DNA from: Nocardioides sp. BP30
GTDB taxonomy: Bacteria; Actinomycetota; Actinomycetes; Propionibacteriales; Nocardioidaceae
Assembly: GCF_029873215.1 (NCBI RefSeq)
Contig: NZ_CP123620.1
Span: forward strand, 2,976,001-3,040,000
DNA length: 64,000 bases
Direction: 5' to 3'
In this document: positions 2,086 to 16,226 of the stretch, piece by piece
How the letters are laid out: every line of letters begins with the position of its first letter
How positions within the stretch are numbered: position 1 is the stretch's first letter
Translations under genes and position numbers: made by a program
Notes under the pieces: generated by a model
Databases searched by the model: none
The model's input: only the letters and a program-made list of their open reading frames with translations
Told to the model about the DNA's origin: nothing

Positions 2086-3576
2086 GTGATCGCAGGCAGA
2101 TACGCGCTCGGGCGCGAGCTCGGCCGGGGCGGGATGGGGGCCGTCTGGCTCGGCACCGACGAGGTGCTGGGCCGTCCCGTCGCGCTCAAGCGCCTCGCTC
2201 CCGCGCACAGCCCGTCCCGAGCCAGGGCCGAGCGCGAGGCGAGGCTCGCGGCCCGGCTCAGCCACCCCCACGTCGTCGCCGTCTACGACCTCGTCACCGA
2301 GGCCGAGGACCAGTGGCTGGTGATGGAGTACGTCGAGGGCAGCACGCTGGCTGCCCACGTGACCGCCGAGGGTCCGCTCTCCCCTGACGCCGCGGCGCCG
2401 CTGCTGCGCCAGATCGCCGATGCGCTGGCCGCCGCACATGCGGCCGGCATCGTGCACCGTGACGTGAAGCCGTCGAACATCCTGCTCGACGCCGTCGGCG
2501 AGGCGAAGCTGACCGACTTCGGCATCGCACGCAGCGACGACCTCGACGCCACCCTGACCCAGACGGGCTTCCTGACCGGCTCCCCCGCCTACCTGGCACC
2601 GGAGGTGGCGGCCGGTGCCCCCGCCGGACCGGCGAGCGACGTCTGGTCCCTCGGCGCGACAGCCTTCCACGCCTTGACCGGCCGGCCGCCGTACGAGGTC
2701 GGCGAGAACGTCATGGGCACGCTCTACCGGATCGTGCACGAGCAGCCGCCACGTACCGAGGCCGCGGGCTGGCTCGCTCCCCTCGTGGAGGGCACGATGA
2801 CACAGGACCCCGCTCGGCGCTGGTCGCTGGCGCAGGTGCAGGAGTTCCTCGCCGGTCGGCGCGTGCCGGCCGCGGCGACCCGCACGCTCCCGACCCTCGC
2901 CGCCGTCGCTCCCACCACCCCGCCTCCCGGTCCGCCACCCGGCGCCGCCCCGCCGGGATCGCCGGCTCCGGTCCCACCCACGCCAGCCGCCCCTGCGGCC
3001 GCCGCCACCGCTCGTCTCGCGGGTGCGCCGACCCGCGCTCGCGTCGCCCACGCCCGGGCACGCGCCGTTCCCGGACGACGCCACCCCGGCGCCCCTCGCC
3101 GGCCGAGCCGGCTCTGGGCCTCGATCGCCGGCGGCGCCGTCGCGATCGCGCTCCTGGTGGCACTCGTGGCGGTCCACCCGTGGAGCCGCAGCGGCCCCAC
3201 GGCGTCTCCTCGGACCGGCCCGAGTCCCTCGTCGGACCCCTCGACCAGCGCGTCGGTCGCCCCGGCGGGGCCGACGGCCGATGGGGTCCGCGCGTTCGTG
3301 TCCACCTACCTGGCCACGGCGAGCAGCGACCCGGCGAAGGGGTTCGCGATGCTGACTCCGGCGTACCAGCGGGCCAGCGGTGGCCTGAAGGGCTATGAGC
3401 GGTTCTGGGGCAACGTCCGCAAGGTGCAGAGCGTCGGGGAGGTGGTGCCCTCGCTCGACCCGCTCGGCGTCTCCTACCGCTACACCTACGTCCTGCGCGG
3501 TGCCGGCAAGCGCACCGAGGACGTCCATCTCCGGCTGGCCTACACCGACGGGCAGTACCTGATCTCCGCCGGTTGA
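2086..3576 (+). CDS. membrane Ser/Thr protein kinase (PknB/Hanks type)
   Basis: Transmembrane eukaryotic-like kinase that would phosphorylate cytoplasmic proteins in response to an external cue. Counting from GTG at 2086 (496 residues): Gly-rich loop GRGGMG at 14-19, ATP lysine at 35 (ALK), catalytic HRDVKPSN at 124-131, DFG at 144-146, APE at 171-173. A Pro/Ala-rich juxtamembrane linker (about 270-340) leads to one membrane segment (343-364), then about 130 extracellular residues that begin Ser/Thr/Pro-rich and end in a small NTF2-like-looking domain. There are no PASTA repeats. The start is uncertain: TAGAGT lies just before GTG 2086 and could be a -10 box for a leaderless transcript; ATG 2047 is the alternative. 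Divergent from tyrS. Confidence 0.9.
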   Translation: MIAGRYALGRELGRGGMGAVWLGTDEVLGRPVALKRLAPAHSPSRARAEREARLAARLSHPHVVAVYDLVTEAEDQWLVMEYVEGSTLAAHVTAEGPLSPDAAAPLLRQIADALAAAHAAGIVHRDVKPSNILLDAVGEAKLTDFGIARSDDLDATLTQTGFLTGSPAYLAPEVAAGAPAGPASDVWSLGATAFHALTGRPPYEVGENVMGTLYRIVHEQPPRTEAAGWLAPLVEGTMTQDPARRWSLAQVQEFLAGRRVPAAATRTLPTLAAVAPTTPPPGPPPGAAPPGSPAPVPPTPAAPAAAATARLAGAPTRARVAHARARAVPGRRHPGAPRRPSRLWASIAGGAVAIALLVALVAVHPWSRSGPTASPRTGPSPSSDPSTSASVAPAGPTADGVRAFVSTYLATASSDPAKGFAMLTPAYQRASGGLKGYERFWGNVRKVQSVGEVVPSLDPLGVSYRYTYVLRGAGKRTEDVHLRLAYTDGQYLISAG

Positions 3577-3669
3577 GCCGTGCGCCGACCGCGTCGGGGC
3601 TGCTGTCCCGACCCTGGTCGCGTTGGTGCTGTCTCGGCACGGCAGGTCCTCGCCCGGTAGGGTCCCGGC

Positions 3670-3743
3670 GGGCCGTTAGCTCAGTCGGTTAGAGCAGAGG
3701 ACTCATAATCCTTGGGTCGCGGGTTCGAGCCCCGCACGGCCTA
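3670..3743 (+). tRNA. tRNA with CAT anticodon, probably tRNA-Ile2 (lysidine type), else elongator Met
   Basis: A full cloverleaf can be folded: acceptor GGGCCGT/ACGGCCT (7 bp, first pair G-U), D arm GCTC/GAGC, anticodon stem GAGGA/TCCTT with loop CTCATAA, T arm GCGGG/CCCGC with loop TTCGAGC, discriminator A, no encoded CCA. The loop contains CAT. The body (TTAGCTCAGT, then TTAGAGCAGA) resembles bacterial Ile2 tRNAs, whose C34 is modified to lysidine, more than elongator Met, but I cannot separate the two with certainty. It is not initiator Met because its first pair can form. Confidence 0.9.
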
Positions 3744-3793
3744 CGCCTCTGACCTGCACCGGGATCGGTCCCGGTGCAGGTCGACGAGAGGCG
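3744..3793. terminator. very stable hairpin after the tRNA, bidirectional terminator candidate
   Basis: A perfect 14-bp stem (GACCTGCACCGGGA at 3751-3764 with its complement at 3769-3782) closes a TCGG tetraloop. It is extended by an outer 7-bp stem (CGCCTCT 3744-3750 with AGAGGCG 3787-3793) across a 4-base bulge. It starts one base after the tRNA discriminator and lies between the tRNA and the convergent uxuA gene, so it could stop transcription from both sides. There is no T tract. Confidence 0.7.
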
Positions 3794-3825
3794 CGGGAGC
3801 AACGCGGGAGCAACGGGGGAGCAAC
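3793..3825. repeat. three tandem copies of an 11-bp unit
   Basis: GCGGGAGCAAC is repeated at 3793-3803, 3804-3814 and 3815-3825; the last copy begins GGGGG instead of GCGGG. It directly abuts the hairpin that follows the CAT tRNA. It has no coding role that I can see. Short repeats next to a tRNA 3' end can be relics of integration events, but no integrase gene or second tRNA fragment is nearby. Confidence 0.75.
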
Positions 3826-3853
3826 GGCCCCTCGTCATGCTCGCCACCCGCCG

Positions 3854-4975
3854 TCAGCTCCGGCAGGCGTCCCAGACCCCGAGCAGATACTGGATGCCGA
3901 GCGCGCGGTCGTAGAGGCCGTAGCCGGGACGAAGACCCGCTCGCTTGGTGGTGTTCTCGTCCCACAGGTGGCGGCCGTGGTCGGGGCGGATGTAGCCGGC
4001 GAATCCGGCCTCGGCGTAGGCCCGCATGATGCCGACGGTGTCCACCGATCCTTCGCACGCCCGGTGCGCGACCTCCGAGAAGTCGCCGTTCGGCAGGTGC
4101 TTGATGTTGCGCACGTGCGAGAAGTGGATGCGGTCCATGAACGTGCGCACCGCATCCACCGCATCGGCCTCCGGATGGGAGGAGAACGATCCCACGCAGA
4201 GCGTCAGGCCGTGGTGGCGCGAGTCGTTGAGCGACAGCACCCGGGCGAGGTCCTGCTTGCGCGAGACCACCCGCGGCCACCCGAAGACGTCGAACGCCGG
4301 ATCGTCGGGATGCACGCCGAGGGCCACGTCGTACTCCTCGCAGGTGGGGATGACCGCGTCGAGAAAGTACCGGTAGTTGCGGTACATGTCCTCGTGGGTG
4401 ACGCCGACGTACGCCGCGCTCAGCTCCCGGAACGAGGCGAGCCGCTCGGGCTCCCAGCCGGGCAGGGTCAGGCCATGGGTGTTGGCCTGGACGTCGGCGA
4501 TCAGCCGCTCCGGATCCAGGGCGTCGACCACCGCCCGCTCGAAGTAGAGCGCGGTGGACCCGTCCGGCAGCGGGTGGAACATGTCGGTGCGCAGCCAGTC
4601 GAAGACCGGCATGAAGTTGTAGCAGACGACCTTCACGCCCGCCCGGCCCAGCCGCTCGATGGCGGTGATGTAGTGGTGGATGGCCTCGTCGCGGGACAGG
4701 CCCAGCACGTCGCGGCCGAGCTTGATGGACTCGTGCACGTTGAGCGACTCCACCACCTCCGCGTCCAACGTCTTGGTGACCCCCCGCGCGGCGTCCTCGG
4801 GTGTGATCGAGGTGATCCTCGCGACCTCGGCATCGATCTCGGCCTGGGTCCACTCCTCCCCGGCGGCCTTGTGGTGCAGCGACCACACGACCGTCTCGAC
4901 GCCGGGGATCTGCCGGATGTCGTTGAGTGAAACCTGGTCGTTGCCCTCGCCGTACCAGCGGAAGCTCATCTTCAT
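3854..4975 (-). CDS. uxuA: mannonate dehydratase
   Basis: Dehydrates D-mannonate to 2-keto-3-deoxygluconate, the third step of glucuronate breakdown. 373 residues, close to the family norm. The N-terminus MSFRWYGEGNDQVSL and the block VVCYNFMPVFDWLRTD are hallmarks of UxuA, as are GVHPDDP and the late metal-binding segment HFSHVRNI. The start ATG at 4975 overlaps the stop of the upstream reductase gene as ATGA, so the two are translationally coupled. It is the last gene of the glucuronate operon and faces the tRNA hairpin. Confidence 0.94.
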   Translation of the reverse strand: MKMSFRWYGEGNDQVSLNDIRQIPGVETVVWSLHHKAAGEEWTQAEIDAEVARITSITPEDAARGVTKTLDAEVVESLNVHESIKLGRDVLGLSRDEAIHHYITAIERLGRAGVKVVCYNFMPVFDWLRTDMFHPLPDGSTALYFERAVVDALDPERLIADVQANTHGLTLPGWEPERLASFRELSAAYVGVTHEDMYRNYRYFLDAVIPTCEEYDVALGVHPDDPAFDVFGWPRVVSRKQDLARVLSLNDSRHHGLTLCVGSFSSHPEADAVDAVRTFMDRIHFSHVRNIKHLPNGDFSEVAHRACEGSVDTVGIMRAYAEAGFAGYIRPDHGRHLWDENTTKRAGLRPGYGLYDRALGIQYLLGVWDACRS

Positions 4976-6420
4976 GAAGCGGATCCTCTCCTCACGGTCA
5001 GCAGCGCCCGGAGATGGGCGGTCAAGGCGTCGCGGAAGCGGCCCACCTCGCGCAGGTCGGCGCCGAAGACCTCCTCCACGCCGAGGAGGGCGTCGACGAT
5101 GCCGGCAGCGTCGTCCCGATCGCCCACGGCGGTGAGCAGCCGCTCCGCGAGCGGGTCCTCGAGCACGAAGGCGCCGCCGTCGCGGCAGCGGGCCACGTAG
5201 GCCATCCACGCCGCCACGATCAGTGCTCCACCCTCGGGAGTGGCGCCGGCGTCGAGCCGGGCGCGCACCGTCGGCAGTACCCGCAGCGGCAGCTTCTGCG
5301 AACCGTCCATCGCCACCTGCGCGGTCCGGTGCCGGAGGGCCGGATTCGCGAACCGGTCGAGCACCTGCCCGCCGTACGCGAGCACGTCGAGACCGTCGGC
5401 CGCCAGCGTCGGCGCCACATCCTCGCGGATGAAGCCCTCCGCCCAGCCGCGCAGTTCCTCGTCCGCGACGGCCTCGGCGATGGTGGCGTGGCCGCGCAGC
5501 GCACCCAGGTAGGCGAGCAGGGAGTGGGTGGCGTTCAGGGTGCGCAGCTTGAGCCGCTCGTACGGCGCGACGTCGTCGACCAGCTCCGCGCCCGCCAGCT
5601 CCCAGGCCGGTCGCCGTGCCGCGAAGTCGTCCTCGATCACCCACTGCCGGAACGGCTCGGCCACCACGACGCCGTGGTCCGTCACGCCCAGACGCTGCGC
5701 GACCAGCGCCCGGTCCGGCGCCGAGGTGGCCGGCACGATCCGGTCCACCATCGAGCTCGGGAACGCGACGTGCTCCTCGACCCAGCCGCCGATCGCCTCC
5801 CCCTCGCCGTCGGGGAGCGCGGCGCAGAACTCGCGCACGAGCCGCCTCAGCACCCCTCCGTTGCCGGCGAGGTTGTCGCAGGAGAGCACGCTCAGCGGGC
5901 CGGCGTCGCCGCGGGCCCGGGCCTGCAACCCGCGGACGAGCTGCCCGACGGCGGTGCTGCTCGCCCCCGAGAGGTCCGCCGCGACGGCGGGGTCCGCAAG
6001 GTCCAGGCCACCGTCGGCCCTCCGCCGATAGCCCTTCTCGGTGACCGTCAGCGTCACCACGCTGACGCCCGGGTCGGCGATCGCCGAGCGCGTCTGGGCG
6101 GGACTCTCGGCCGCGAACAGCACGTCGGCGACCTGGCCGACGACGCGGACCCGGTCGTCCCCGCCGCGCTCCAGCACCGAGTAGAGGAAGTCCTGCGGCA
6201 CGAGCTGGTCCAGCACGGTGGCCGAGCGCTGGGTGATCCCGCAGATCCCCCAGTCGTCCTCCCCCGCCGCGAGCGCGGCGTCCTCGGTGAACACGGCCTG
6301 GTGGGCGCGGTGGAAGGCGCCGATGCCCAGGTGTACGACGCCGACCCGGCGGGGGCGGTCGACAGGCACCCGCACTCCAGCACCGCCGCGCGGCAGGGTC
6401 CGCAGAGACAGCCGGCTCAT
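4972..6420 (-). CDS. uxuB: fructuronate reductase (mannitol dehydrogenase family)
   Basis: NAD-dependent reductase that would convert D-fructuronate to D-mannonate. 482 residues. The N-terminal Rossmann part contains VVHLGIGAFHRAHQA; the C-terminal domain carries the family signature KLRTLNATHS (conserved Lys, Asn and His of the mannitol/fructuronate/tagaturonate reductases). Homology alone cannot separate mannitol dehydrogenase from fructuronate reductase. The neighbours uxaC, kdgK and uxuA favour fructuronate reductase. It starts at ATG 6420, overlapping the kdgK stop by four bases. Confidence 0.88.
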   Translation of the reverse strand: MSRLSLRTLPRGGAGVRVPVDRPRRVGVVHLGIGAFHRAHQAVFTEDAALAAGEDDWGICGITQRSATVLDQLVPQDFLYSVLERGGDDRVRVVGQVADVLFAAESPAQTRSAIADPGVSVVTLTVTEKGYRRRADGGLDLADPAVAADLSGASSTAVGQLVRGLQARARGDAGPLSVLSCDNLAGNGGVLRRLVREFCAALPDGEGEAIGGWVEEHVAFPSSMVDRIVPATSAPDRALVAQRLGVTDHGVVVAEPFRQWVIEDDFAARRPAWELAGAELVDDVAPYERLKLRTLNATHSLLAYLGALRGHATIAEAVADEELRGWAEGFIREDVAPTLAADGLDVLAYGGQVLDRFANPALRHRTAQVAMDGSQKLPLRVLPTVRARLDAGATPEGGALIVAAWMAYVARCRDGGAFVLEDPLAERLLTAVGDRDDAAGIVDALLGVEEVFGADLREVGRFRDALTAHLRALLTVRRGSAS

Positions 6421-7409
6421 GAGACAGCCTCGGGGTGGTGCGTCTCGAGCGCCGCCCGGGTCTGCGCCAGGGTGGGGATGAAGCCGGTGCCGCCCTGTCC
6501 CTGCACCGACAGCGCAGCCGCCGCGCCGGCCAACCGGGCCGCCGTCTCCAGGTCGTCGCCGAGAGCGAGCCGGCCCGCGAGCGTGCCGCCGAAGCAATCC
6601 CCGGCCCCGGTCTGGTCGACCACCGCCGGTGCCGGCGTCGGTGGTACGTGTCGCGTGCCCCGCTCGGCGTCCCACAGCTGCGCCCCGTCGGCCCCGCAGG
6701 TCATCACGATGCTCCTCGCTCCGAGACGACCCAGCGCGGCGAGTGCCCCCACCATCGGTGTGTCAGCCGCCTCGGCACCCGCACCCGTCAGGTCCAGCAG
6801 CTGCTGCGTCTCCGTGGGCCACGACGGCACGATCACCTCGGCGAGCGGCGCCAGCTCCCGCAGCATCGCCGCGGCGGCGGTCCGATCCGTCAGGCGCGGC
6901 CGGAAGTTCGGGTCGTAGACGAAGCGCCGGGCCAGCCGTGCGGCGTGCCGGACGGCATCGGCGGCGCTGGTCGAGACGGCGCAGGTGATGCCGCTGGCCA
7001 GCACCACCCCTGCCTGCTGCAGCAGGGCGTCGTCGAGGTCGGCCACGGACAGCTGCGAGCCGAGGCTGCCCGTGCGCACATAGGTGAACTCGCGGCGGCC
7101 CTCGGGGTCCGCGTGGGAGAGGTACAGGCCGTGCTGACCCTCGCTCCGCACGATCCATCCGGTGTCGATGCCGAGCGCCCCGGCGCGCGCCACCAGCGCG
7201 TCTCCCAGCTCGTCGCTCGGGACCTTGGCGATCAAGGCGGTGCGAGCCCCCGCCGCCGCGGCTGCCGCGGCGGCGTTCAGGGCGTCACCGGAGAAACCGA
7301 GCCGTGTGGCCGCTCCATCGACGAGCGGTCCGGTCGAGGAGACCTCGACGAGCACCTCGCCGAGCACGACCACGTCGATGCTCAGCCGGTCGCGGTCGGG
7401 GTCAGGCAC
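6417..7409 (-). CDS. kdgK: 2-keto-3-deoxygluconate kinase (PfkB family)
   Basis: Phosphorylates 2-keto-3-deoxygluconate to KDPG, the fourth step of the pathway. 330 residues from GTG 7409. It has the PfkB layout: substrate-binding N-terminal part with GFSGDALNAA, and the C-terminal signature DQTGAGDCFGGTLAGRL holding the catalytic Asp and anion-hole glycines. The start overlaps the uxaC stop by 8 bases, consistent with coupling. The exact sugar is inferred from the operon. A KDPG aldolase gene, needed to finish the pathway, is not in this window. Confidence 0.88.
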   Translation of the reverse strand: MPDPDRDRLSIDVVVLGEVLVEVSSTGPLVDGAATRLGFSGDALNAAAAAAAAGARTALIAKVPSDELGDALVARAGALGIDTGWIVRSEGQHGLYLSHADPEGRREFTYVRTGSLGSQLSVADLDDALLQQAGVVLASGITCAVSTSAADAVRHAARLARRFVYDPNFRPRLTDRTAAAAMLRELAPLAEVIVPSWPTETQQLLDLTGAGAEAADTPMVGALAALGRLGARSIVMTCGADGAQLWDAERGTRHVPPTPAPAVVDQTGAGDCFGGTLAGRLALGDDLETAARLAGAAAALSVQGQGGTGFIPTLAQTRAALETHHPEAVS

Positions 7410-8853
7410 TGCTCGCTCCTCGGGGAAGGGTCGGGTAGACGGCTCGGGGCAGGTCGTGGGCGAGCGCCACAGCCGTCTCGACGGCCTCGTCGAGCTCGAG
7501 ACGGTGCTCGGCGACCAGCCGGGCCAGGTGGCCCGCGTCCATCCGGCGGGCGAGGTCGTGGCGCGCCGGGATCGATAGGAAGGCACGCGTGTCGTCGACG
7601 AACCCCGCGGTGTTGAAGAAGCCTGCGGTGTCCACCGCCGCCTCCCGGAACCGGCGCATCCCGTCCGGGCTGTCGAGGAACCACCACGGCGCGCCGAGCC
7701 GCACCGCCGGGTAGACACCCGCCAGCGGGGCGAGCTCGCGGCTGTAGGTCGTCTCGTCGACGGTGAAGAGCACCAGCGTGAAGTCCGGGTGGTGCCCGAA
7801 GGCGTTGAGCAGCGGTCGCAGGCTTCGGGTGAACTCGGTGCTGACCGGGATGTCGTAGCCGATGTCGCTCCCCCACGACTCCTGCGTCCGCGGGTCGTGG
7901 TCTCGCAGCACCCCTGGGTGCAGCTGCATGACCAGCCCGTCGTGGGTCGACATCCGGGCCATCTCGAACAGCATGTGGGCCGCGAACGCGTCCGCCTGGG
8001 GTGCGGTGACCTCCCCGCGCAGGGCCGCGGCGAAGATCCGCTCGGCCTCGGAGCCGTCCAGCGGCGTGGTGTCGGCGCTGGCGTGGCCGTGGTCGGTGGC
8101 GCGCGCGCCCGCCTCGACGAACGCCCACCGGCGCTGCTCCAGGGCGGCGACGAAGTCCGCGTATCCGCCGATCTCGCTGCCCGTCCGCTGGCCGAGGAGC
8201 GCCAGACTGTCAGCCCAGTCCGTGCGGTCCAGGCGCAGCACTGCGTCGGGCCTGAACGTCGGCACGATCCGGTCGGTGTACCCGCGCTCGGCGAGTCGGT
8301 GGTGGCTGGACAGGTCCGCGTCCGCGGCGTCGGTCGTCGCCAGGACCTCGATACCCCACCGGTCCAGCAGCGCCAGGGGCAGGAAGTCGGGCTCGGCCAG
8401 TCGCGCGCTGATGTCGTCGAAGACCCGATCCGCGTTGTCGGCCGACAGCCGCCACTCCACCCCGAGCGTCTCGGCGAACACGTGCTCGAGCCAGAACCTC
8501 GTCGGTGTCCCCCGGAACAGGTGCCAGCGGGAGGCGAAGGCGCGCCAGACCTCGCGCGGGTCGACGGCCGCCGTCGTGCCGTCGGGCCGGTGCAGTCCGA
8601 GGGACTCCGGCGCCACGCCCTGGGACAGGAGCATTCGGACCAGGTAGTGGTCGGGGACGACGAGCAGCGAGGCCGGGTCGCCGAACGGCTGATCGGCCTC
8701 CAGGAGGGCGACCGGCACGTGACCGTGCATGGAGACGATCGGCAGATCCCGCGTGTGACCCAGGATCTCACGGGCGATGCCGCGCTCCACCGTCCCGCTC
8801 GGCAGGGCTCGGTCGGGGTGCAGCCCGGTACGGGTCGGCTGCGCGAGTGCCAC
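7402..8853 (-). CDS. uxaC: glucuronate isomerase
   Basis: Isomerises D-glucuronate to D-fructuronate, or galacturonate to tagaturonate; a metal-dependent enzyme of the amidohydrolase superfamily. 483 residues, normal for the family. Visible family blocks include SMHGHVP near residue 41 (HxH metal-type motif) and, later, LVLFTVDETTYSRELAPLAG and WWFLDSPDGMRRF. GTG start at 8853 with GAGGAGG about 7 bases upstream. First gene of the four-gene operon and divergent from the LacI-type regulator. Confidence 0.94.
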   Translation of the reverse strand: MALAQPTRTGLHPDRALPSGTVERGIAREILGHTRDLPIVSMHGHVPVALLEADQPFGDPASLLVVPDHYLVRMLLSQGVAPESLGLHRPDGTTAAVDPREVWRAFASRWHLFRGTPTRFWLEHVFAETLGVEWRLSADNADRVFDDISARLAEPDFLPLALLDRWGIEVLATTDAADADLSSHHRLAERGYTDRIVPTFRPDAVLRLDRTDWADSLALLGQRTGSEIGGYADFVAALEQRRWAFVEAGARATDHGHASADTTPLDGSEAERIFAAALRGEVTAPQADAFAAHMLFEMARMSTHDGLVMQLHPGVLRDHDPRTQESWGSDIGYDIPVSTEFTRSLRPLLNAFGHHPDFTLVLFTVDETTYSRELAPLAGVYPAVRLGAPWWFLDSPDGMRRFREAAVDTAGFFNTAGFVDDTRAFLSIPARHDLARRMDAGHLARLVAEHRLELDEAVETAVALAHDLPRAVYPTLPRGASSA

Positions 8854-8884
8854 GAGGTCGCCTCCTCGGCGTACGAACGTCGAA

Positions 8885-8900
8885 ATGAATGCGGTTTCAT
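8885..8900. promoter_or_regulatory. LacI-family operator candidate
   Basis: ATGAATGCGGTTTCAT is an imperfect palindrome, with ATGAA and TTCAT arms around a central CG. Half-sites around a central CpG are the usual form of LacI-family operators. It lies between the divergent uxaC (start 8853) and regulator (start 8973), so it could control both directions. It is the only such palindrome I found in the gap. Confidence 0.55.
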
Positions 8901-8972
8901 CCGCCTTCAGGGCATACTACGACGACGCAGCGCGGTGGGGGAATCGCGCTCACGGTCGGCCGGAGGCCCACG

Positions 8973-9998
8973 ATGGTCACGTTGCGAGACGTCGCTCGCG
9001 CGGCAGGGGTCTCGCCCGCGACGGCGTCGCGAGCCCTCGGCAATCCCGATGTCGTCGCCGCCGGCACCCGCGAGCGAGTGCTCCGGACCGCGCGCGAGCT
9101 CGGCTACCGGGCCAACCAGGCCGCCCGCGCCCTGGCGACCGGTGACAGCGGCATGATCGGGCTCGTCGTCCCTGACATCGAGAGTCCTTTCTTCGCCTCG
9201 ATCGCGAAGGGGGTGGATGCGCGTGCCCGCGAGCTCGGGTCCTCGGTGCTGATCGCCGACACCCAGGAGGACGCGGAGCTCGAGGCAGAGGTGGCGGGCC
9301 GCGTCCAGGAGCGGGTCGAGGGGGTAATCCTCTGCTCGCCGCGGATGGGTACGGCGGACCTCGGCGGGCTCGCCGACCTCGGCCCGACCGTGCTGATCAA
9401 CCGCGAGTCCAGCGACCTGCCCTCGGTCAGCTTCGAGACGCCGACGGGCGTTCGCGCCGCACTCGCGCACCTGCGTTCGCTGGGCCACCGGGTGATCGCG
9501 TACGTCGGCGGTCCGCACTCGGCCTGGGCCGACGCCGAGCGCCGATCGGCGCTCCACGCGGTGCCGGGGCTCAGGATCGTCGACCTCGGCCACCACCGGC
9601 CGGTGCACGACAGCGGCGCCGCGGCCGTCGATACCGTCATGGCGTGCGGCGCGAGCGCCGTGCTCTGCTACAACGACCTGGTGGCCGTCGGCCTCGTCCG
9701 CAGCCTCCAGAGCAGGGGCATCCGCGTTCCCGAGGACATCTCCGTGGTGGGCTTCGACGACATCGCGCTCGCAACGCTGACGGCACCGGCGCTGACCACC
9801 GTCAGGCTGCCCTGGGCGGCCGCGGGGCGCGTCGCCGTGGATCTTCTGCTCGGCGCCGGGGAGGACGCCGGGGAGGACGCCGGGGAGCCGGCGGCCGGAC
9901 GGGCCCCCCGACGCGTGCGGCTGGGGGTCGAGCTGGTGGTCCGGGAGTCGACGGGCGTCGGCCCGGAACGCGCTGTCCCGCCCCTCCCCGAGGCCTGA
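8973..9998 (+). CDS. LacI-family transcriptional regulator of the glucuronate operon
   Basis: 341 residues from ATG 8973. The N-terminus VTLRDVARAAGVSPATASRAL is a textbook LacI helix-turn-helix, followed by a hinge (YRANQAARAL) and a periplasmic-binding-protein-like sensor domain. The C-terminal domain contains the family block DISVVGFDDIALA. A shadow in-frame start lies 28 codons upstream, but the helix-turn-helix should begin within a few residues of the true start. It probably represses uxaC-kdgK-uxuB-uxuA until a pathway sugar acid binds. Near the C-terminus a 12-base unit GCCGGGGAGGAC is tandemly repeated (9855-9878), encoding GEDA repeats that could vary by slippage. Confidence 0.93.
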   Translation: MVTLRDVARAAGVSPATASRALGNPDVVAAGTRERVLRTARELGYRANQAARALATGDSGMIGLVVPDIESPFFASIAKGVDARARELGSSVLIADTQEDAELEAEVAGRVQERVEGVILCSPRMGTADLGGLADLGPTVLINRESSDLPSVSFETPTGVRAALAHLRSLGHRVIAYVGGPHSAWADAERRSALHAVPGLRIVDLGHHRPVHDSGAAAVDTVMACGASAVLCYNDLVAVGLVRSLQSRGIRVPEDISVVGFDDIALATLTAPALTTVRLPWAAAGRVAVDLLLGAGEDAGEDAGEPAAGRAPRRVRLGVELVVRESTGVGPERAVPPLPEA

Positions 9999-10674: not shown

Positions 10675-13600
10675 TCAGGGGCCGGCCACGGCCACCGGTG
10701 CGGCGACCACCACCCGATAGCGGGTGTAGTGGAAGTGGCCGTTGGGATAGACCACCCGGTCGGTGCAGCTGACCAGCACGAGGCGGTGGCGTCCGGTGGT
10801 GTCGAAGAAGCGACGCGGCAGCGCCGCGCCCCGGGCGTAGGACGCGGTGTGAGTGACGTCGAACCGGTAGACACGGCCACCGTGGGAGATCGTCACGATC
10901 CGACCGCGACGGGCCCCGGAGAGCTGGTTCATGGCGCCGGGTCGGTCATGCCGGTCGGAGACGTGGCCGGCGATGACGGTCGTGCCGATCAGGTCGCCGA
11001 CCCCCGCGGAGCGACCCAGCCAGCCGACGTCGGCAACGTCTCGCGGGAGGGTCATATGGTCGCGGGAGATCCTCTCCCTGGTCACCGGCGCGTCGAGCCC
11101 GATGGAGCGCATCGCGACCACGAACGGCGTACGACGTGCGCTGACCGGCATGGTGAGGGTGCCGGAGAAGCCGCCGTCGATGATCGGAGCGGTATAGCTG
11201 CGCTTGGCGACCGTCGTGGTCTCGGCGCTCTGCCCGCAGGGGTGGGTGGCCGCTCGGTTGGCGGCGTCGGCGAGGGTGGTGACCTGCCAGGTGTACACGC
11301 CCGGCTTGCGGAGGTGGACCTTGGGTGAGTGGCTGGTACCGCTGACGGCGTGCCAGGTGATGGTGCGCGCCAGGTGCGCGGGGGTGCATGCGGCGCGGGC
11401 TCGTGAGGGGAACGGGCCGTAGAGCCGCGCCTGTGCGGTGAGGCCCGAGCTGGCAGCGCTGCCGCTGACGTCGCTGAGGTGCACGCGGTCGTAGAACCCG
11501 GTGCCGGGTGCGACGCGCCTCGCCGAGGTGTGCGTGGTGAGGTGGGGGGTTCCCGGCCCGAGCGGAGGAGCCGGTTCGGCTTGGGCGGTGTTGACGACTG
11601 TGCACACGATGTCCTGCCCCAGGGTGGCCGAGATGCTGTCGTCGCCGGTCTGCTCGGCGCCCACGCAGTCCCAGCCACCGGCCTCGTATCCGCTCGGGCC
11701 GGTGGACTCGCTGAGCGTGTAGTCGCCCAGCGCGATGGTCTGGTCGGTGATGGCGGTGCTGCCGCCCGGCCCGGTGACGGTGCTCGGGCCGGTGGCGGTG
11801 AGGTTCCAGTCGGAGGGGACGCCGGTACGGCCGGTGTCGGCGTTGTCCACGACCTTGACCAGGGTCAGGTGGGTGGTGCAGCGGACGGTGTTGGTGATCG
11901 TGTAGTGGTTGGCGCCCGGGTTGAGCGACGCGGTGTAGGGCACCGGCGCGTCGAAGGTGTCCCCGCGTACCTCGGTGACGGCCTGCGAGACCAGGGCGCA
12001 TCCGGGACGGTCCACCGTGGCCGTCTCGTCCAGGGTCGGGGTGTCGCCGGCCTCGTACCCGTTGGCGGTGACGCCCCAGCCGAGGTCCTCGGGTAGGCCG
12101 TCGACGGGACTGGTCACCGTGAGCTGCGACTGGAGGAAGCCGGGTTGGCTGCCGTCGGGGACGGTGGTGACGCTGGTGCCCGTGTCGATCGTCCAGAGCT
12201 TGTCGACCGAGAGGCTGGCTTCGGGTGGGACCGACGGTGGCCGGTTGTAGAGGGTGCAGGAGATCGCTGCCTGCGAGACGGCGGTGAGGGTGAATCCCGG
12301 ATGGGTGGCCGAGCCGGTGTTGGTGACCGGGACGGACGCGCCGGTGCTCAGGTTGGTGCACACGGCGTTCGCTCCGCCCTGGGTGACCAGCGTGTATCCG
12401 GTCTGCTGGGTCTCTTCGAAGGTGGCGGGTCCGGTCTCGGCGCCGCCGGAGAAGACCAGATCGAAGTTCACGCTCCCGGTGCCGTCATCGGTGGTGGTCG
12501 CGGTGGTGGGGGTCACCGCGAGGTTGGGGCTGCCCGCCGCTTGGAAGGCCCAGCCCTCCGGTGCTGGCACCGCTCCGGTGACGTCCTCGCCGGTGTTGGC
12601 GGAAGGGACGATCTGCTTGACGACGCTGATCGACCCTTCGCAGGAATCCAAGGCGATGGCGTGCAGGGCGGTGGCCGCGGCGGCGTAGCTCGGCTCCTGG
12701 AAGTAGTCGGCCGTGTCGGGGTTGCTTCCGTTGTACGCGGTCGCGCCGGAGATCGCGCGCAGGTTCAGGGCCGTGTTGCCGTCCGTCACACCCGCACCGA
12801 CGCCGAGGGCGACGACGCGGGTCCCTTGGGCCTTGAGTGCGTTGGCGGAGAAGACGGCCTCCTCGTCCTCACGAACACGGTCGTTGCTGCCCGAGCCCTG
12901 CGCGCCGTTGCCGCCCACCCGGGTGCCGTAGTTCGTCGGGTTGCCGTCGGTGATGACCACAGCGAGGTCGTAGTGGTCGGCGGCATTGGCCGCCGACGCG
13001 ATGCCGCGGTCCCAGTTGGTGCCGCCGCCGGCCGCCCAGCCGGCGTACCGACCCTTGACGGTGGCGGCTCCGGCAGCCGTCGAGACCGGCTGCAGGGAGG
13101 GATAGTTCGCGCTGGCACCGGTGGCCGGGGAGGTGTAGGAGAAGGAGAAGACCGACATCCGCGAAGGAGTGCCGACCAGGCTGTCGACGAAGCTGTCCGC
13201 TGCGCCCCTCAGGTTCGGCAGGTCGGAGCCGACCGACCCGGACAGGTCGAGGATCAGGGCGACGTCGAGGCCGCACTTGGCGGGAAAGGCGGGATTGTCC
13301 CGCGACTGCTGCCACACCCCGCCCGAGGACTGGCGCTGCGTCGTCGCGGTGCCGAGATCGGTCATGAAGTCGCTGCCGGAGCGGTAGGTGGTGCCCGCTC
13401 GCAGCTGTGCGCCGGTCCGGAACCGGTAGGTGGCCACCAGGGAGGTGCTCGCATCCGAGGAGCCGACCCGGAGACGGGGGTTGGTGTACCAGCCGGCCGG
13501 CGCGGAGACCTGGGAGACCCAGAAGCGGCGGTCGCGGTTGGCACCACGGGTCTGCGTGTCGGGCACGACGAAGCTGCAGTCGCCGGCCGCGTCGGAGGTA

Positions 13601-13881
13601 CAGGTCGACCACGGCTGGTCCACGGCGGCGCCCGCGGTGCCGGCGTCGTCGACCAACAGCTGCAGCACCACGCCCGCGAGCGGGCCGACAGCTCCGCTGA
13701 CCTGGCGATCGCCCCCGACCTCGACGGTGAGGACGGCATCGTTCCCGGTCGGCGTCGGCACGGCCCCGTCCGCCGAGCTGCCCGTCAGCGACGCGAGACC
13801 GGCCAAGCCCGGCAGACACAGCGCGAGGACCCAGCCGATCAGCGGGCGACACCTGGCGCCGGCGACATTGCGTACACCCAT
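10675..13881 (-). CDS. surface adhesin fused to a sortase: signal peptide, VWA, prealbumin-like repeats, C-terminal class E/F-like sortase
   Basis: 1068 residues in one uninterrupted frame from ATG 13881 (GGGAG 5 bases upstream). Order: signal peptide (about 1-40, hydrophobic run LIGWVLALCLPGLAGLA); an Ig-like region; a von Willebrand A domain (about 205-410) with an intact metal site DLSGS at 212-216 and VVITDGNP; then at least three repeated beta-rich modules resembling prealbumin-fold pilin domains (starting near SISVVKQIV, ASLSVDKLW and LTLVKVVD). A Cys-containing linker follows, and about the last 180 residues are a sortase domain with TVIAGH (His near 973), LVLVSC (Cys near 1039) and YTRYR (Arg near 1054-1056). 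It has no LPXTG tail. Sortases are normally separate 200-300 residue enzymes, so one chain carrying both adhesin and transpeptidase is odd. It may crosslink itself or anchor a partner; this is inference. Confidence 0.85.
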   Translation of the reverse strand: MGVRNVAGARCRPLIGWVLALCLPGLAGLASLTGSSADGAVPTPTGNDAVLTVEVGGDRQVSGAVGPLAGVVLQLLVDDAGTAGAAVDQPWSTCTSDAAGDCSFVVPDTQTRGANRDRRFWVSQVSAPAGWYTNPRLRVGSSDASTSLVATYRFRTGAQLRAGTTYRSGSDFMTDLGTATTQRQSSGGVWQQSRDNPAFPAKCGLDVALILDLSGSVGSDLPNLRGAADSFVDSLVGTPSRMSVFSFSYTSPATGASANYPSLQPVSTAAGAATVKGRYAGWAAGGGTNWDRGIASAANAADHYDLAVVITDGNPTNYGTRVGGNGAQGSGSNDRVREDEEAVFSANALKAQGTRVVALGVGAGVTDGNTALNLRAISGATAYNGSNPDTADYFQEPSYAAAATALHAIALDSCEGSISVVKQIVPSANTGEDVTGAVPAPEGWAFQAAGSPNLAVTPTTATTTDDGTGSVNFDLVFSGGAETGPATFEETQQTGYTLVTQGGANAVCTNLSTGASVPVTNTGSATHPGFTLTAVSQAAISCTLYNRPPSVPPEASLSVDKLWTIDTGTSVTTVPDGSQPGFLQSQLTVTSPVDGLPEDLGWGVTANGYEAGDTPTLDETATVDRPGCALVSQAVTEVRGDTFDAPVPYTASLNPGANHYTITNTVRCTTHLTLVKVVDNADTGRTGVPSDWNLTATGPSTVTGPGGSTAITDQTIALGDYTLSESTGPSGYEAGGWDCVGAEQTGDDSISATLGQDIVCTVVNTAQAEPAPPLGPGTPHLTTHTSARRVAPGTGFYDRVHLSDVSGSAASSGLTAQARLYGPFPSRARAACTPAHLARTITWHAVSGTSHSPKVHLRKPGVYTWQVTTLADAANRAATHPCGQSAETTTVAKRSYTAPIIDGGFSGTLTMPVSARRTPFVVAMRSIGLDAPVTRERISRDHMTLPRDVADVGWLGRSAGVGDLIGTTVIAGHVSDRHDRPGAMNQLSGARRGRIVTISHGGRVYRFDVTHTASYARGAALPRRFFDTTGRHRLVLVSCTDRVVYPNGHFHYTRYRVVVAAPVAVAGP

Positions 13882-14059: not shown

Positions 14060-15880
14060 CTACTGCGTCAGCCGGCGGACGCTCAGGTGCTTGGTGTGCC
14101 CGTTGCGGTGCAGTGTCGCGATGTGCAGACGTCGGCCCACTGTCTCATCGCCGGTGTGCCCGCGCGTCCACGCGGCGTAAGCAAGCCGTAGCCGGCCACG
14201 CGTGTCGATGAAGGCGTCCGCGCCGCCCGGGCCGGAGATCGCGCCCCGGGAGGCCAGGAGCGGGCTCGAACGGGGCTTGGTGCACGGGCCGGCGAGGGAG
14301 CCGCAGACGGCGTACCCGGTGGCGTAGTGGCCGGTCTGGTAGCGATTGGCGGAGTAGAAGAGGTAGAGCGTGCCGCGGTAGCGGATCATCGACGGGTTTT
14401 CCATGATGACGCCCTCCCACGGCTGGGTGAAGGTGAGCAGGTCGTGCCGTCGGCTCCCCTTCGCCCATCCGGTGCCCGCATTGTTCAGGCGCCTGATAGC
14501 GAGCTGGGCGCGCCGTCGGTGAGGGATCCCCTCGGCGGCCCACACCAGGTAGGCGTGGTGGGTGTGCGGGTCGACGAACACGTCGGGGTCGATGACGCCG
14601 AACGGCGTGGACGGGTCGCACAACAACGGCCTGCTGCGTGCCCGGTACGGGCCGGCCGGGTCGGAGGAGACGGCCAGACCGATGCAGGAGTGCCGTCGAT
14701 CACCGGAGGTGGTCCGGGTGGCCGCGGAGAACGCGACGACGTACCGGTGCTTGTGCACGCGAGCCAGCGACGGCGCCCACTGCGAGATCCGCTCCACGTT
14801 CTCACGCCTGGCGAAGCTCGCGGCCCACTCGGGTGCCTTCGTCAGGGCCTCGTTGTAGCTGCGCCAGCTCGAGTAGTCGTAGTAGTTCGGCAGCGCGGCC
14901 CGGGGCTGCCAACGCTCGAGGTTCGCGCTGGTCATCACCGGCAGGTTGAGGTTCGACTGGGTCGTCGAGGCGGCGTAGTACGTCTTGCCGACCCGCATCA
15001 CCGTCGGGTCGGCGAAGCCGCCCCGGTAGTCGGTGATGGTCGGGGAGAACGAACGGCTCGTGCTGTAGCGGATCTGCTTCCGCGCCATCCAGGCGGGCAC
15101 TCGCACCGGTGCGGTCGTCGTGGGGGCGAGGACCCAGGTCACTCCGGCGTAGGAGACCGGACGGACCTGAGGGGTCGGCGCGCCGGCTGGAGTGAGGGTC
15201 AACGGCGAGGTGGCCGGGACGGTGACCACACCGGAGAAGACGCCGGCGGCGTTCGCGCGCAGGGTCACGGCCGGGCTGGCCGCGCCGCCCGCGCGCACCG
15301 TCACCTGTCCCTGCGGGAACGTCGCGTGGGTGCCGTCGTCATGCTCGGCGTACAGGGTGCCCGTGACGCGGACGTGGGCTCGGTGGTCTCCCGGGACGCC
15401 GTACGGCGCGGAGACGCTCACGCCTGAGACCCAGACCCTGCAGGCCCGGTAGGTGAGGTCGAACGAGTGCGAGTAGCCCTCGCCGCTGACCTCGATCGCG
15501 CCGACCGGGCGCGCCAGGGTGCGGGCGACGCGGCCGTCGTTCGCGGTGGCTGCGTCGATGTGGCCGGTCTTGACGCCGTGGGAGTACCAGTCGAGCGTGT
15601 AGGGGCTGTGGCTGAGTGCTTCGCCGGTGGCCCGGTTGCGGAACTGGACGTCGATGCTCGTCGGCTGCGGGCACACGCTGATCGTGCTCGTGCTCCCGTT
15701 CGCGGCTGCGGCGGTGGCGCCGTCGACCGAGACGGAGACCACCGTCGGGTTCGTCCCAGCGTCGGCAGGTCGGCTTTCGGCGCCGGCGAGGATGACGAAG
15801 GTGGTCACCAGGACGGTGAGGCAGATGAGGCTTGCGGTGCAGAGGCGGCGTAGACGGGCGAGCGAGTGGAAGCTGGTCAC
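14060..15880 (-). CDS. secreted glycoside hydrolase, GH43-like beta-propeller
   Basis: 606 residues from GTG 15880, which places a signal peptide (LARLRRLCTASLICLTVLV, then an ADA cleavage region) at the N-terminus; an in-frame upstream start (15985) would bury that signal. Residues about 40-290 are a beta-sandwich-rich part. The C-terminal 300 residues look like the five-bladed propeller of GH43/GH32-type enzymes: GFADPTVMRVGKTYY supplies a putative base Asp, VIDPDVFVDPHTHHAYLVW a modulating Asp, and MENPSMIRYRGTLYLFYSAN a possible acid Glu. The natural substrate, perhaps an arabinan or xylan side chain, cannot be read from the sequence. The stop is 178 bases from the adhesin-sortase start, same strand. 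Confidence 0.82.
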   Translation of the reverse strand: MTSFHSLARLRRLCTASLICLTVLVTTFVILAGAESRPADAGTNPTVVSVSVDGATAAAANGSTSTISVCPQPTSIDVQFRNRATGEALSHSPYTLDWYSHGVKTGHIDAATANDGRVARTLARPVGAIEVSGEGYSHSFDLTYRACRVWVSGVSVSAPYGVPGDHRAHVRVTGTLYAEHDDGTHATFPQGQVTVRAGGAASPAVTLRANAAGVFSGVVTVPATSPLTLTPAGAPTPQVRPVSYAGVTWVLAPTTTAPVRVPAWMARKQIRYSTSRSFSPTITDYRGGFADPTVMRVGKTYYAASTTQSNLNLPVMTSANLERWQPRAALPNYYDYSSWRSYNEALTKAPEWAASFARRENVERISQWAPSLARVHKHRYVVAFSAATRTTSGDRRHSCIGLAVSSDPAGPYRARSRPLLCDPSTPFGVIDPDVFVDPHTHHAYLVWAAEGIPHRRRAQLAIRRLNNAGTGWAKGSRRHDLLTFTQPWEGVIMENPSMIRYRGTLYLFYSANRYQTGHYATGYAVCGSLAGPCTKPRSSPLLASRGAISGPGGADAFIDTRGRLRLAYAAWTRGHTGDETVGRRLHIATLHRNGHTKHLSVRRLTQ

Positions 15881-16226
15881 GTATCTCGAGCTGTTGCGGG
15901 CTCGGGGCGAGCCGAGCTGGGTGGGCGGTCGGGTGCGCTGGCCCGGGTGGAGTGGCCCGCGCGAGCGACGCCGCCGCGCCGGCACCGGGTCGAAACGTCG
16001 GTGCGCCGCGGTGGGCTACGGCCGGTCGTGCACGCAGTGCCCGTGACCGCGGCCCGTCGGTGCCGCCACGGGACAGTATCAAGGACCAAGGTCCCCATCC
16101 CGGTTGCCGGCGTCGTGCGTGTCGGCCACCGAGCGGGAGCACGCAGCGACCGTGCGCGCCCGGCGCGCAGCACGACAGCAAAAGGGCCCCTGGTCTGCAT
16201 CTCAGCAGGTCAGAGAGCCTCTTTCC
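15881..16226. other. gene-free stretch upstream of the GH43 gene
   Basis: I see no convincing gene here in either direction. Its left end holds the untranslated or extended N-terminal codons of the GH43 gene. At 16077-16098 there is a promoter-like stretch on the minus strand (extended -10-like TGATACT) that could serve the GH43 gene. At 16178-16195 a run AAAAGGGCCCCT, when read on the minus strand, gives GGGGCCC followed by TTTT, resembling a terminator for transcription coming from the tRNA-Asn side. Confidence 0.4.

Follow-up and report, generated by a model that had tools for sequence, protein, structure and literature searches.

The usual view of sortases is that of housekeeping or pilus enzymes which process tailed substrates in trans, and an ordinary class F sortase is a short chain that carries an N-terminal membrane segment of its own, in agreement with our reading of the frames compared here. 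The 64,000-nucleotide stretch of Nocardioides sp. BP30 that was analyzed (contig NZ_CP123620.1, positions 2,976,001 to 3,040,000; hereafter the window, in whose numbering positions are given) holds a gene of a different design. At 10675..13881 on the minus strand, a continuous frame with homologues in other genomes encodes a 1068-residue secreted adhesin whose C-terminal module is itself a sortase. One report on class F sortases, in its available part, regards the physiological role of these enzymes as unknown and describes no phenotypic change in a quadruple class F mutant (PMC13251363). Our analysis favors, with reasonable though far from complete confidence, a self-sorting surface adhesin, in which a pilus-tip-like front with von Willebrand A (VWA) and SpaA modules is joined to its own dedicated class-F-related sortase, and the sorting motif lies in the linker.

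Architecture and distribution of the fusion

The minus-strand frame (13881..10675) bears out the original prediction that an adhesin and a sortase share one chain; a plus-strand reading of the gene was ruled out by the stop codons within it. The chain, all features of which lie on the minus strand, begins with the predicted signal peptide (residues 1–39, end approximate; 13765..13881), which is its only hydrophobic segment. The VWA domain (residues 206–382; 12736..13266) scores below the cut-off in one scan and is supported by further analyses; as predicted, its metal ion-dependent adhesion site (MIDAS) is intact, with Asp212, Ser214, Ser216, Thr288, and Asp312 all present. A SpaA_2 prealbumin-like module follows (residues 670–762; 11596..11874), scoring 86.8 bits. 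Next comes a β-domain that we label LYGPF (residues 778–893; 11203..11550), which adjoins the sortase in the fused frames. The hexapeptide PIIDGG (residues 899–904; 11170..11187), conserved in the family and proposed as the sorting motif, and a linker (residues 905–914; 11140..11169) then lead into the sortase domain (residues 915–1068; 10678..11139). The AlphaFold model is disordered right after the motif, with a predicted local distance difference test score (pLDDT) below 50 at residues 906–914 (model residues 138–146).

A VWA domain with a MIDAS together with CnaB/SpaA-type modules marks pilus-tip adhesins of the SpaC/RrgA type, and the front half of the protein has both. Foldseek matches this half to sortase-built pilus-tip adhesins, namely SpaC (E = 4e-18), PitA (8.5e-13), and RrgA (1.6e-10). 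A homologue search with the fusion protein scored 7992 candidates and found 375, of which 120 were listed; seven of the 120 share the whole layout and 113 the front only. Similarity ends at residues 760–779 in 98 of these 113, and a simple rule assigns to 90 of the 113 a C-terminal LPXTG-like motif together with a hydrophobic run and a basic tail. P0011, P0012, and P0023 have the same type of tail by eye, with LPGAG, LPSAG, and LPDAG, and several others outside the rule look truncated. The point at which similarity is lost and the LPXTG-like tails of the front-only proteins together indicate that in the fusion the sorting tail has been replaced by the LYGPF domain and the sortase.

All fetched loci together contain 155 distinct sortase-bearing frames (counted by sortase end, near-copies kept): 93 fused, 8 split partners, and 54 others. 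These frames run from stop to stop rather than following annotated genes, and some reach the edge of their locus. The absence of an LPXTG tail, noted in the original prediction, is confirmed: the sortase occupies the chain end, with no C-terminal sorting motif, hydrophobic segment, or basic tail behind it. Neither the last 400 residues of this protein nor those of any of the 93 fused frames contain a hydrophobic 19-mer (mean Kyte–Doolittle value above 1.8), and in all 93 the chain stops 0–10 residues past the last aligned sortase residue. The fronts vary; Pfam matches in 15 fused relatives include DUF11/DUF7507, SdrD_B, NHL, and cadherin-like repeats, and several of the 15 match at the sortase alone. 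A thioester domain (TED) was found in two of the nine fused relatives of one Pfam scan, one of them also with a TQ ester-bond domain, and in none of six further relatives scanned or in the window protein.

A search for the same fusion in Nocardioidaceae, proposed at the outset, recovered it in other assemblies. The window protein thus does not stand alone: the layout defines a family of Nocardioidaceae, and a less common version occurs in other parts of the phylum. Searched with the last 300 residues, 142 of 196 Nocardioides genomes gave a match, a count that includes ordinary class-F-like sortases. Among the matches listed, a nearly whole module in a frame of more than 500 residues was present in at least 34 of the 196, including the host and the carrier of the paralogue L092. 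Some genomes of the genus hold several copies, and the host itself has a second fusion (L012, G000:C1:130520-131383; motif PHIDTG) with 33% identity in the module. Named carriers include Nocardioides soli, N. daejeonensis, N. carbamazepini, and Pimelobacter simplex. In a phylum sample of 396 genomes, eight matched at 1e-30: the host, five other fusions, and two that have the sortase part alone. These five fusions, from outside the class of the host, form a branch of their own beside ordinary class-F-like sortases, with a support of 98 in the Shimodaira–Hasegawa-like approximate likelihood ratio test (SH-aLRT).

An artefact of assembly had been named as a finding that would overturn the fusion, and errors of annotation could likewise join two neighboring genes. 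Adjacent-gene forms do occur in relatives, and in some metagenome records the two parts appear as separate gene calls (P0031 and P0131, whose longest contig measures 21441 bases in either case). However, the host genome is a single 4.28 Mb contig, the identical layout recurs in other assemblies, and P0126, P0127, P0128, P0129, P0131, and P0133 start within the LYGPF domain or shortly ahead of it, lack a visible signal peptide, and so look like gene fragments; the chance that the fusion is such an artefact is negligible.

The sortase module and its catalytic residues

The AlphaFold model of the C-terminal domain has a pLDDT of 91 and is matched by Foldseek and VIA to many sortases, which bears out the proposed fold. 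In terms of class, the class F sortase profile NF033748 scores 47.3 bits, short of its cut-off of 166; the curated sequence match is class F, “class F sortase” is the database name of some fused relatives, and the structures nearest to the domain are class C. No membrane anchor of its own stands beside the catalytic domain, the distant signal peptide being the only candidate segment. In a quick tree of 153 of the 155 frames (two were omitted for few columns), the group that contains the window sortase is made up of 88 fused rows, 8 split rows, and 1 other, with an SH-aLRT value of 92, below the 95 mark.

The catalytic residues His973 (in GHVSD; 10963..10965) and Cys1039 (in LVSCT; 10765..10767) are each kept in 92 of the 93 fused frames, including frames from other classes of the phylum. 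These counts come from a profile alignment (His 92, Gln 1 at the His position); a reading of the His column as His 90 and Gln 3 stemmed from misplaced script picks. In the paralogue L092 (G029:C21, frame 2594-7795), the His is replaced in GQV and the Cys in TK, and the frame is open, as in a natural dead copy. A dead sortase is thus true of L092 alone among the 93 and was rejected for the family as a whole.

The original prediction had the His, Cys, and Arg motifs all in place, and this stands for His and Cys; for Arg it is unproven. The column at the start of strand β8, which we take to be the catalytic Arg site of sortases, holds Thr in the window protein and is mixed in the fused family (Thr 45, Arg 28, Ala 11, Val 6, and one each of Asn, Lys, and Leu); it is variable, too, in the 54 other sortases compared. 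The sequence alignments to Protein Data Bank entries stop just past the Cys, and the catalytic Arg is not readable from them. Outside this column, Arg1017 (10831..10833) is a conserved basic position, with Arg in 88 and Lys in 5 of the 93 fused frames.

The retention of an open frame in L092 without His and Cys, together with the missing canonical Arg, would suit a module that serves only to bind the wall and has lost transpeptidase activity. Set against the conservation of Cys and His in 92 of 93 frames, across classes of the phylum, we regard such a loss as very improbable.

The motif between adhesin and sortase

Between the LYGPF domain and the sortase, the fused frames conserve P-x-[VI]-x-[TSGA]-G, in which the leading Pro is not constant and the precise residues vary. 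The motif Gly is present in 59 of the 60 rows of a first alignment, from which a phmmer threshold dropped L092 and L106; the sixtieth row, L087, has the motif further upstream. In a later set that retook all frames, a script matched the motif in 92 of the 93 fused frames (L075 was missed), and another expression found 89, falling short for similar reasons. The script picks were misplaced in several rows (e.g., L039, L043, L047, L058, L067, L087, L088, L136, L137, and L226), and read by eye in the printed linkers, misplaced and missed ones included, [VIF]-x-[TSGA]-G is present in 93 of 93.

Relatives in which adhesin and sortase are separate neighboring genes were found in seven loci of the sister genus Marmoricola (code g5; the genus name comes from P0164, a Marmoricola record with which the L131 protein shares 100% identity) and on the Pimelobacter plasmid pB-N39. 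Separate genes in close homologues had been named as evidence against the fusion; these relatives explain it rather than refute it. In all eight pairs the motif lies near the C-terminal end of the adhesin (PEIPSG six times, PDIPTG, and PYVPAG). The sortase start codon, a candidate in every pair except on the plasmid, where it is annotated, overlaps the adhesin stop codon by 4 bases in seven pairs and follows it after an 11-base gap in the eighth. By our reading, all eight separate sortases have a membrane segment or a lipobox of their own. Those of L130, L133, and L134 seem to be lipoproteins (with a lipobox such as LVTAC or LLAGC) rather than membrane-segment proteins, and one sister-genus genome (G273:C4) has a split pair and a fusion together, at L134 and L135.

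A search with one Marmoricola adhesin found 126 homologues and listed 120, of which 65 are fused and 55 unfused. In 50 of the 55 unfused homologues P-E-[IV]-P-[ST]-G is present (PEIPSG 29, PEVPTG 17, PEVPSG 2, and PEIPTG 2), and 3–51 residues follow it; the motif pattern is matched in 62 of the 65 fused ones, the other three carrying variants. A classical hydrophobic segment and basic tail follow the motif in the unfused P0185, P0200, and P0208; the tail of P0252 is marginal in these features, and that of P0273 is 28 residues long. The five that lack the motif (P0207, P0229, P0231, P0266, and P0271) look truncated or frame-shifted. The position of the motif near the C terminus of unfused adhesins, three times with a classical tail, indicates that it belongs to the substrate, whether or not the sortase is fused. 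Within the unfused set, P0230, P0233, P0236, P0237, P0241–P0244, P0248, and P0253 end in PEVPTG (PEIPTG in P0242) and 19 further residues that include WW and finish in a hydrophobic aromatic stretch such as LARLWVA, perhaps a short tail that holds the protein at the membrane.

The spacing of the motif also fits the self-sorting reading, being similar to that of the lid in class C sortases. The available part of the report on SrtC1 of group B Streptococcus places the lid Asp at position 49 and the His at 122 and gives DP(W/F/Y) as the lid anchor (PMC3166054), and this lid-to-His spacing is about equal to the motif-to-His spacing of the fused family, which is 61–77 residues in 77 of 92 script picks. 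The VIA alignments to the model begin at residues 88–125 for class C rows and only at 144–149 for most class A rows. As VIA reports just the two end points of an alignment, and the start for several class C rows is at 88–92, inside the LYGPF domain, the overlay of motif and lid is suggestive only. Alternatively, the motif could be a class C-like lid, or pseudosubstrate, with the fused sortase working in trans on other surface proteins and the adhesin serving to position the enzyme. We consider this unlikely, as a lid would belong to the enzyme, whereas the motif sits near the adhesin end in the split pairs and is followed by a classical sorting tail in three unfused homologues. The DP(W/F/Y) anchor is absent from the window segment, which reads APIIDGGFSG.

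The notion that the motif is merely the first strand of another LYGPF repeat was also set aside. It is partly true of P-x-[VI]-x-T, as the opening strand of the repeats resembles the first motif residues; with a strict pattern, however, none of the 58 distinct strands that open internal repeats has the Gly after it.

Several observations weigh against a self-sorting adhesin. The resemblance just described suggests that the motif may partly be structural, and with a looser strand pattern the Gly came next in 21 of 206 cases; among 40 examples read, those with Gly were terminal motifs and one stretch near a protein start. The subclade of the window protein mostly has Gly rather than Thr before the conserved Gly, which is unusual for a sortase site, and the canonical β8 Arg is not conserved in the alignment. 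Of the unfused motif-bearing adhesins, 45 of 50 have only 3–20 residues past the motif with which they could be held for the separate sortase. The rows compared are related and include near-copies, so the counts are not independent, and it is from sequence that we infer cleavage and transpeptidation at the motif.

Anchoring, genomic context, and known systems

In the self-sorting adhesin, the chain would be exported by the Sec pathway and its signal peptide removed. The sortase would emerge last and fold beside the motif; tethered in this way, it should need neither the membrane segment nor the basic tail that would hold a substrate, which could account for their observed absence. Acting in cis, Cys1039 and its partner His973 would next attack the peptide bond that precedes the conserved Gly904, which would yield an adhesin-acyl enzyme. 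This intermediate could be resolved by an amino group on the cell wall or on a different surface protein, so that the adhesin would be covalently anchored and the sortase left behind or released. Self-processing or cis-anchoring, raised in the original prediction, is now the best reading, backed by the domain swap, the substrate motif, the dedicated split pairs, the conserved Cys and His, and the motif-to-His geometry. Whether the family as a whole represents a widespread form of anchoring that has escaped description is, in our estimate, evenly balanced; it would combine a fused substrate with a class-F-related sortase and a new motif (P-E-[IV]-P-[ST]-G / P-x-[IV]-x-T-G) and sort once in cis without a retention tail, and the Marmoricola split pairs would show its enzyme, substrate, and motif in a state preceding or following fusion.

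The five neighboring open reading frames scanned with Pfam comprise a GH43 protein, a mannitol dehydrogenase, UxaC, a LacI-type regulator, and one that matches nothing. The secreted-looking GH43 protein (14060-15985, minus strand) lies directly upstream of the fusion gene. The surface function suggested to be shared with it is unsupported by a second case: the GH43 neighbor is in no other fetched locus, few of which (L065 and the shorter copy L031) hold a close relative of the front. On the other side, window positions 4972-9998 carry uronate-type sugar genes by Pfam (mannitol-dehydrogenase-like, the glucuronate isomerase UxaC, and the LacI-type regulator), and by our own reading the frame at 6417-8900 contains a sugar-kinase-like stretch. 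Gram_pos_anchor (PF00746) has no match in the host genome, where an LPFTG protein nevertheless lies beside two sortases; PF00746 thus misses cases there.

This context bears on a further possibility, that the fusion builds a pilus or fiber, its sortase linking adhesin chains to one another by class C-like polymerization rather than to the wall. The front matches the sortase-built pilus-tip adhesins SpaC, PitA, and RrgA, and the nearest sortase structures are class C. Yet a pilus operon of the SpaC/RrgA type is not seen, as the five neighboring frames scanned include neither a pilin nor a sortase, and the curated sequence match points to class F; a fiber builder is accordingly improbable.

Hedgehog proteins and inteins undergo C-terminal autoprocessing, in which the C-terminal module cuts before itself and the N-terminal part is passed to a new partner. 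By analogy, the C-terminal enzyme here would cut in front of itself, the difference being that it is another enzyme, a sortase. In comparison with class F sortases (NF033748; 5uus, SrtF of Corynebacterium diphtheriae), the sortase forms the C-terminal module of a large adhesin. With respect to the class C pilus sortases (Actinomyces oris SrtC1, 2xwg), the segment corresponding to the lid is a conserved motif that is borne by the substrate in split relatives. The LPXTG-anchored VWA pilus-tip adhesins SpaC, PitA, and RrgA share the structure of the front half and have an LPXTG tail where this protein has its sortase. TED proteins are described in the available part of PMC4450167 as almost always LPXTG-anchored; the two fused relatives with a TED end in a sortase instead.

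In the titles and abstract openings of the open-access literature that was covered (subscription journals being outside this scope), a natural adhesin–sortase fusion or its motif was not found described. The adhesin half and the sortase half are each already known, and their fusion is a variant of sortase-mediated anchoring not found described. If the self-sorting reading is correct, enzyme and substrate are made as one molecule with the cutting site kept between them, which would give surface anchoring a new logic and would provide a concrete candidate substrate motif for class-F-type sortases. The fusion module would then be a self-contained tethered transpeptidase, testable with one purified fragment, in place of an enzyme that meets its tailed substrates in trans.
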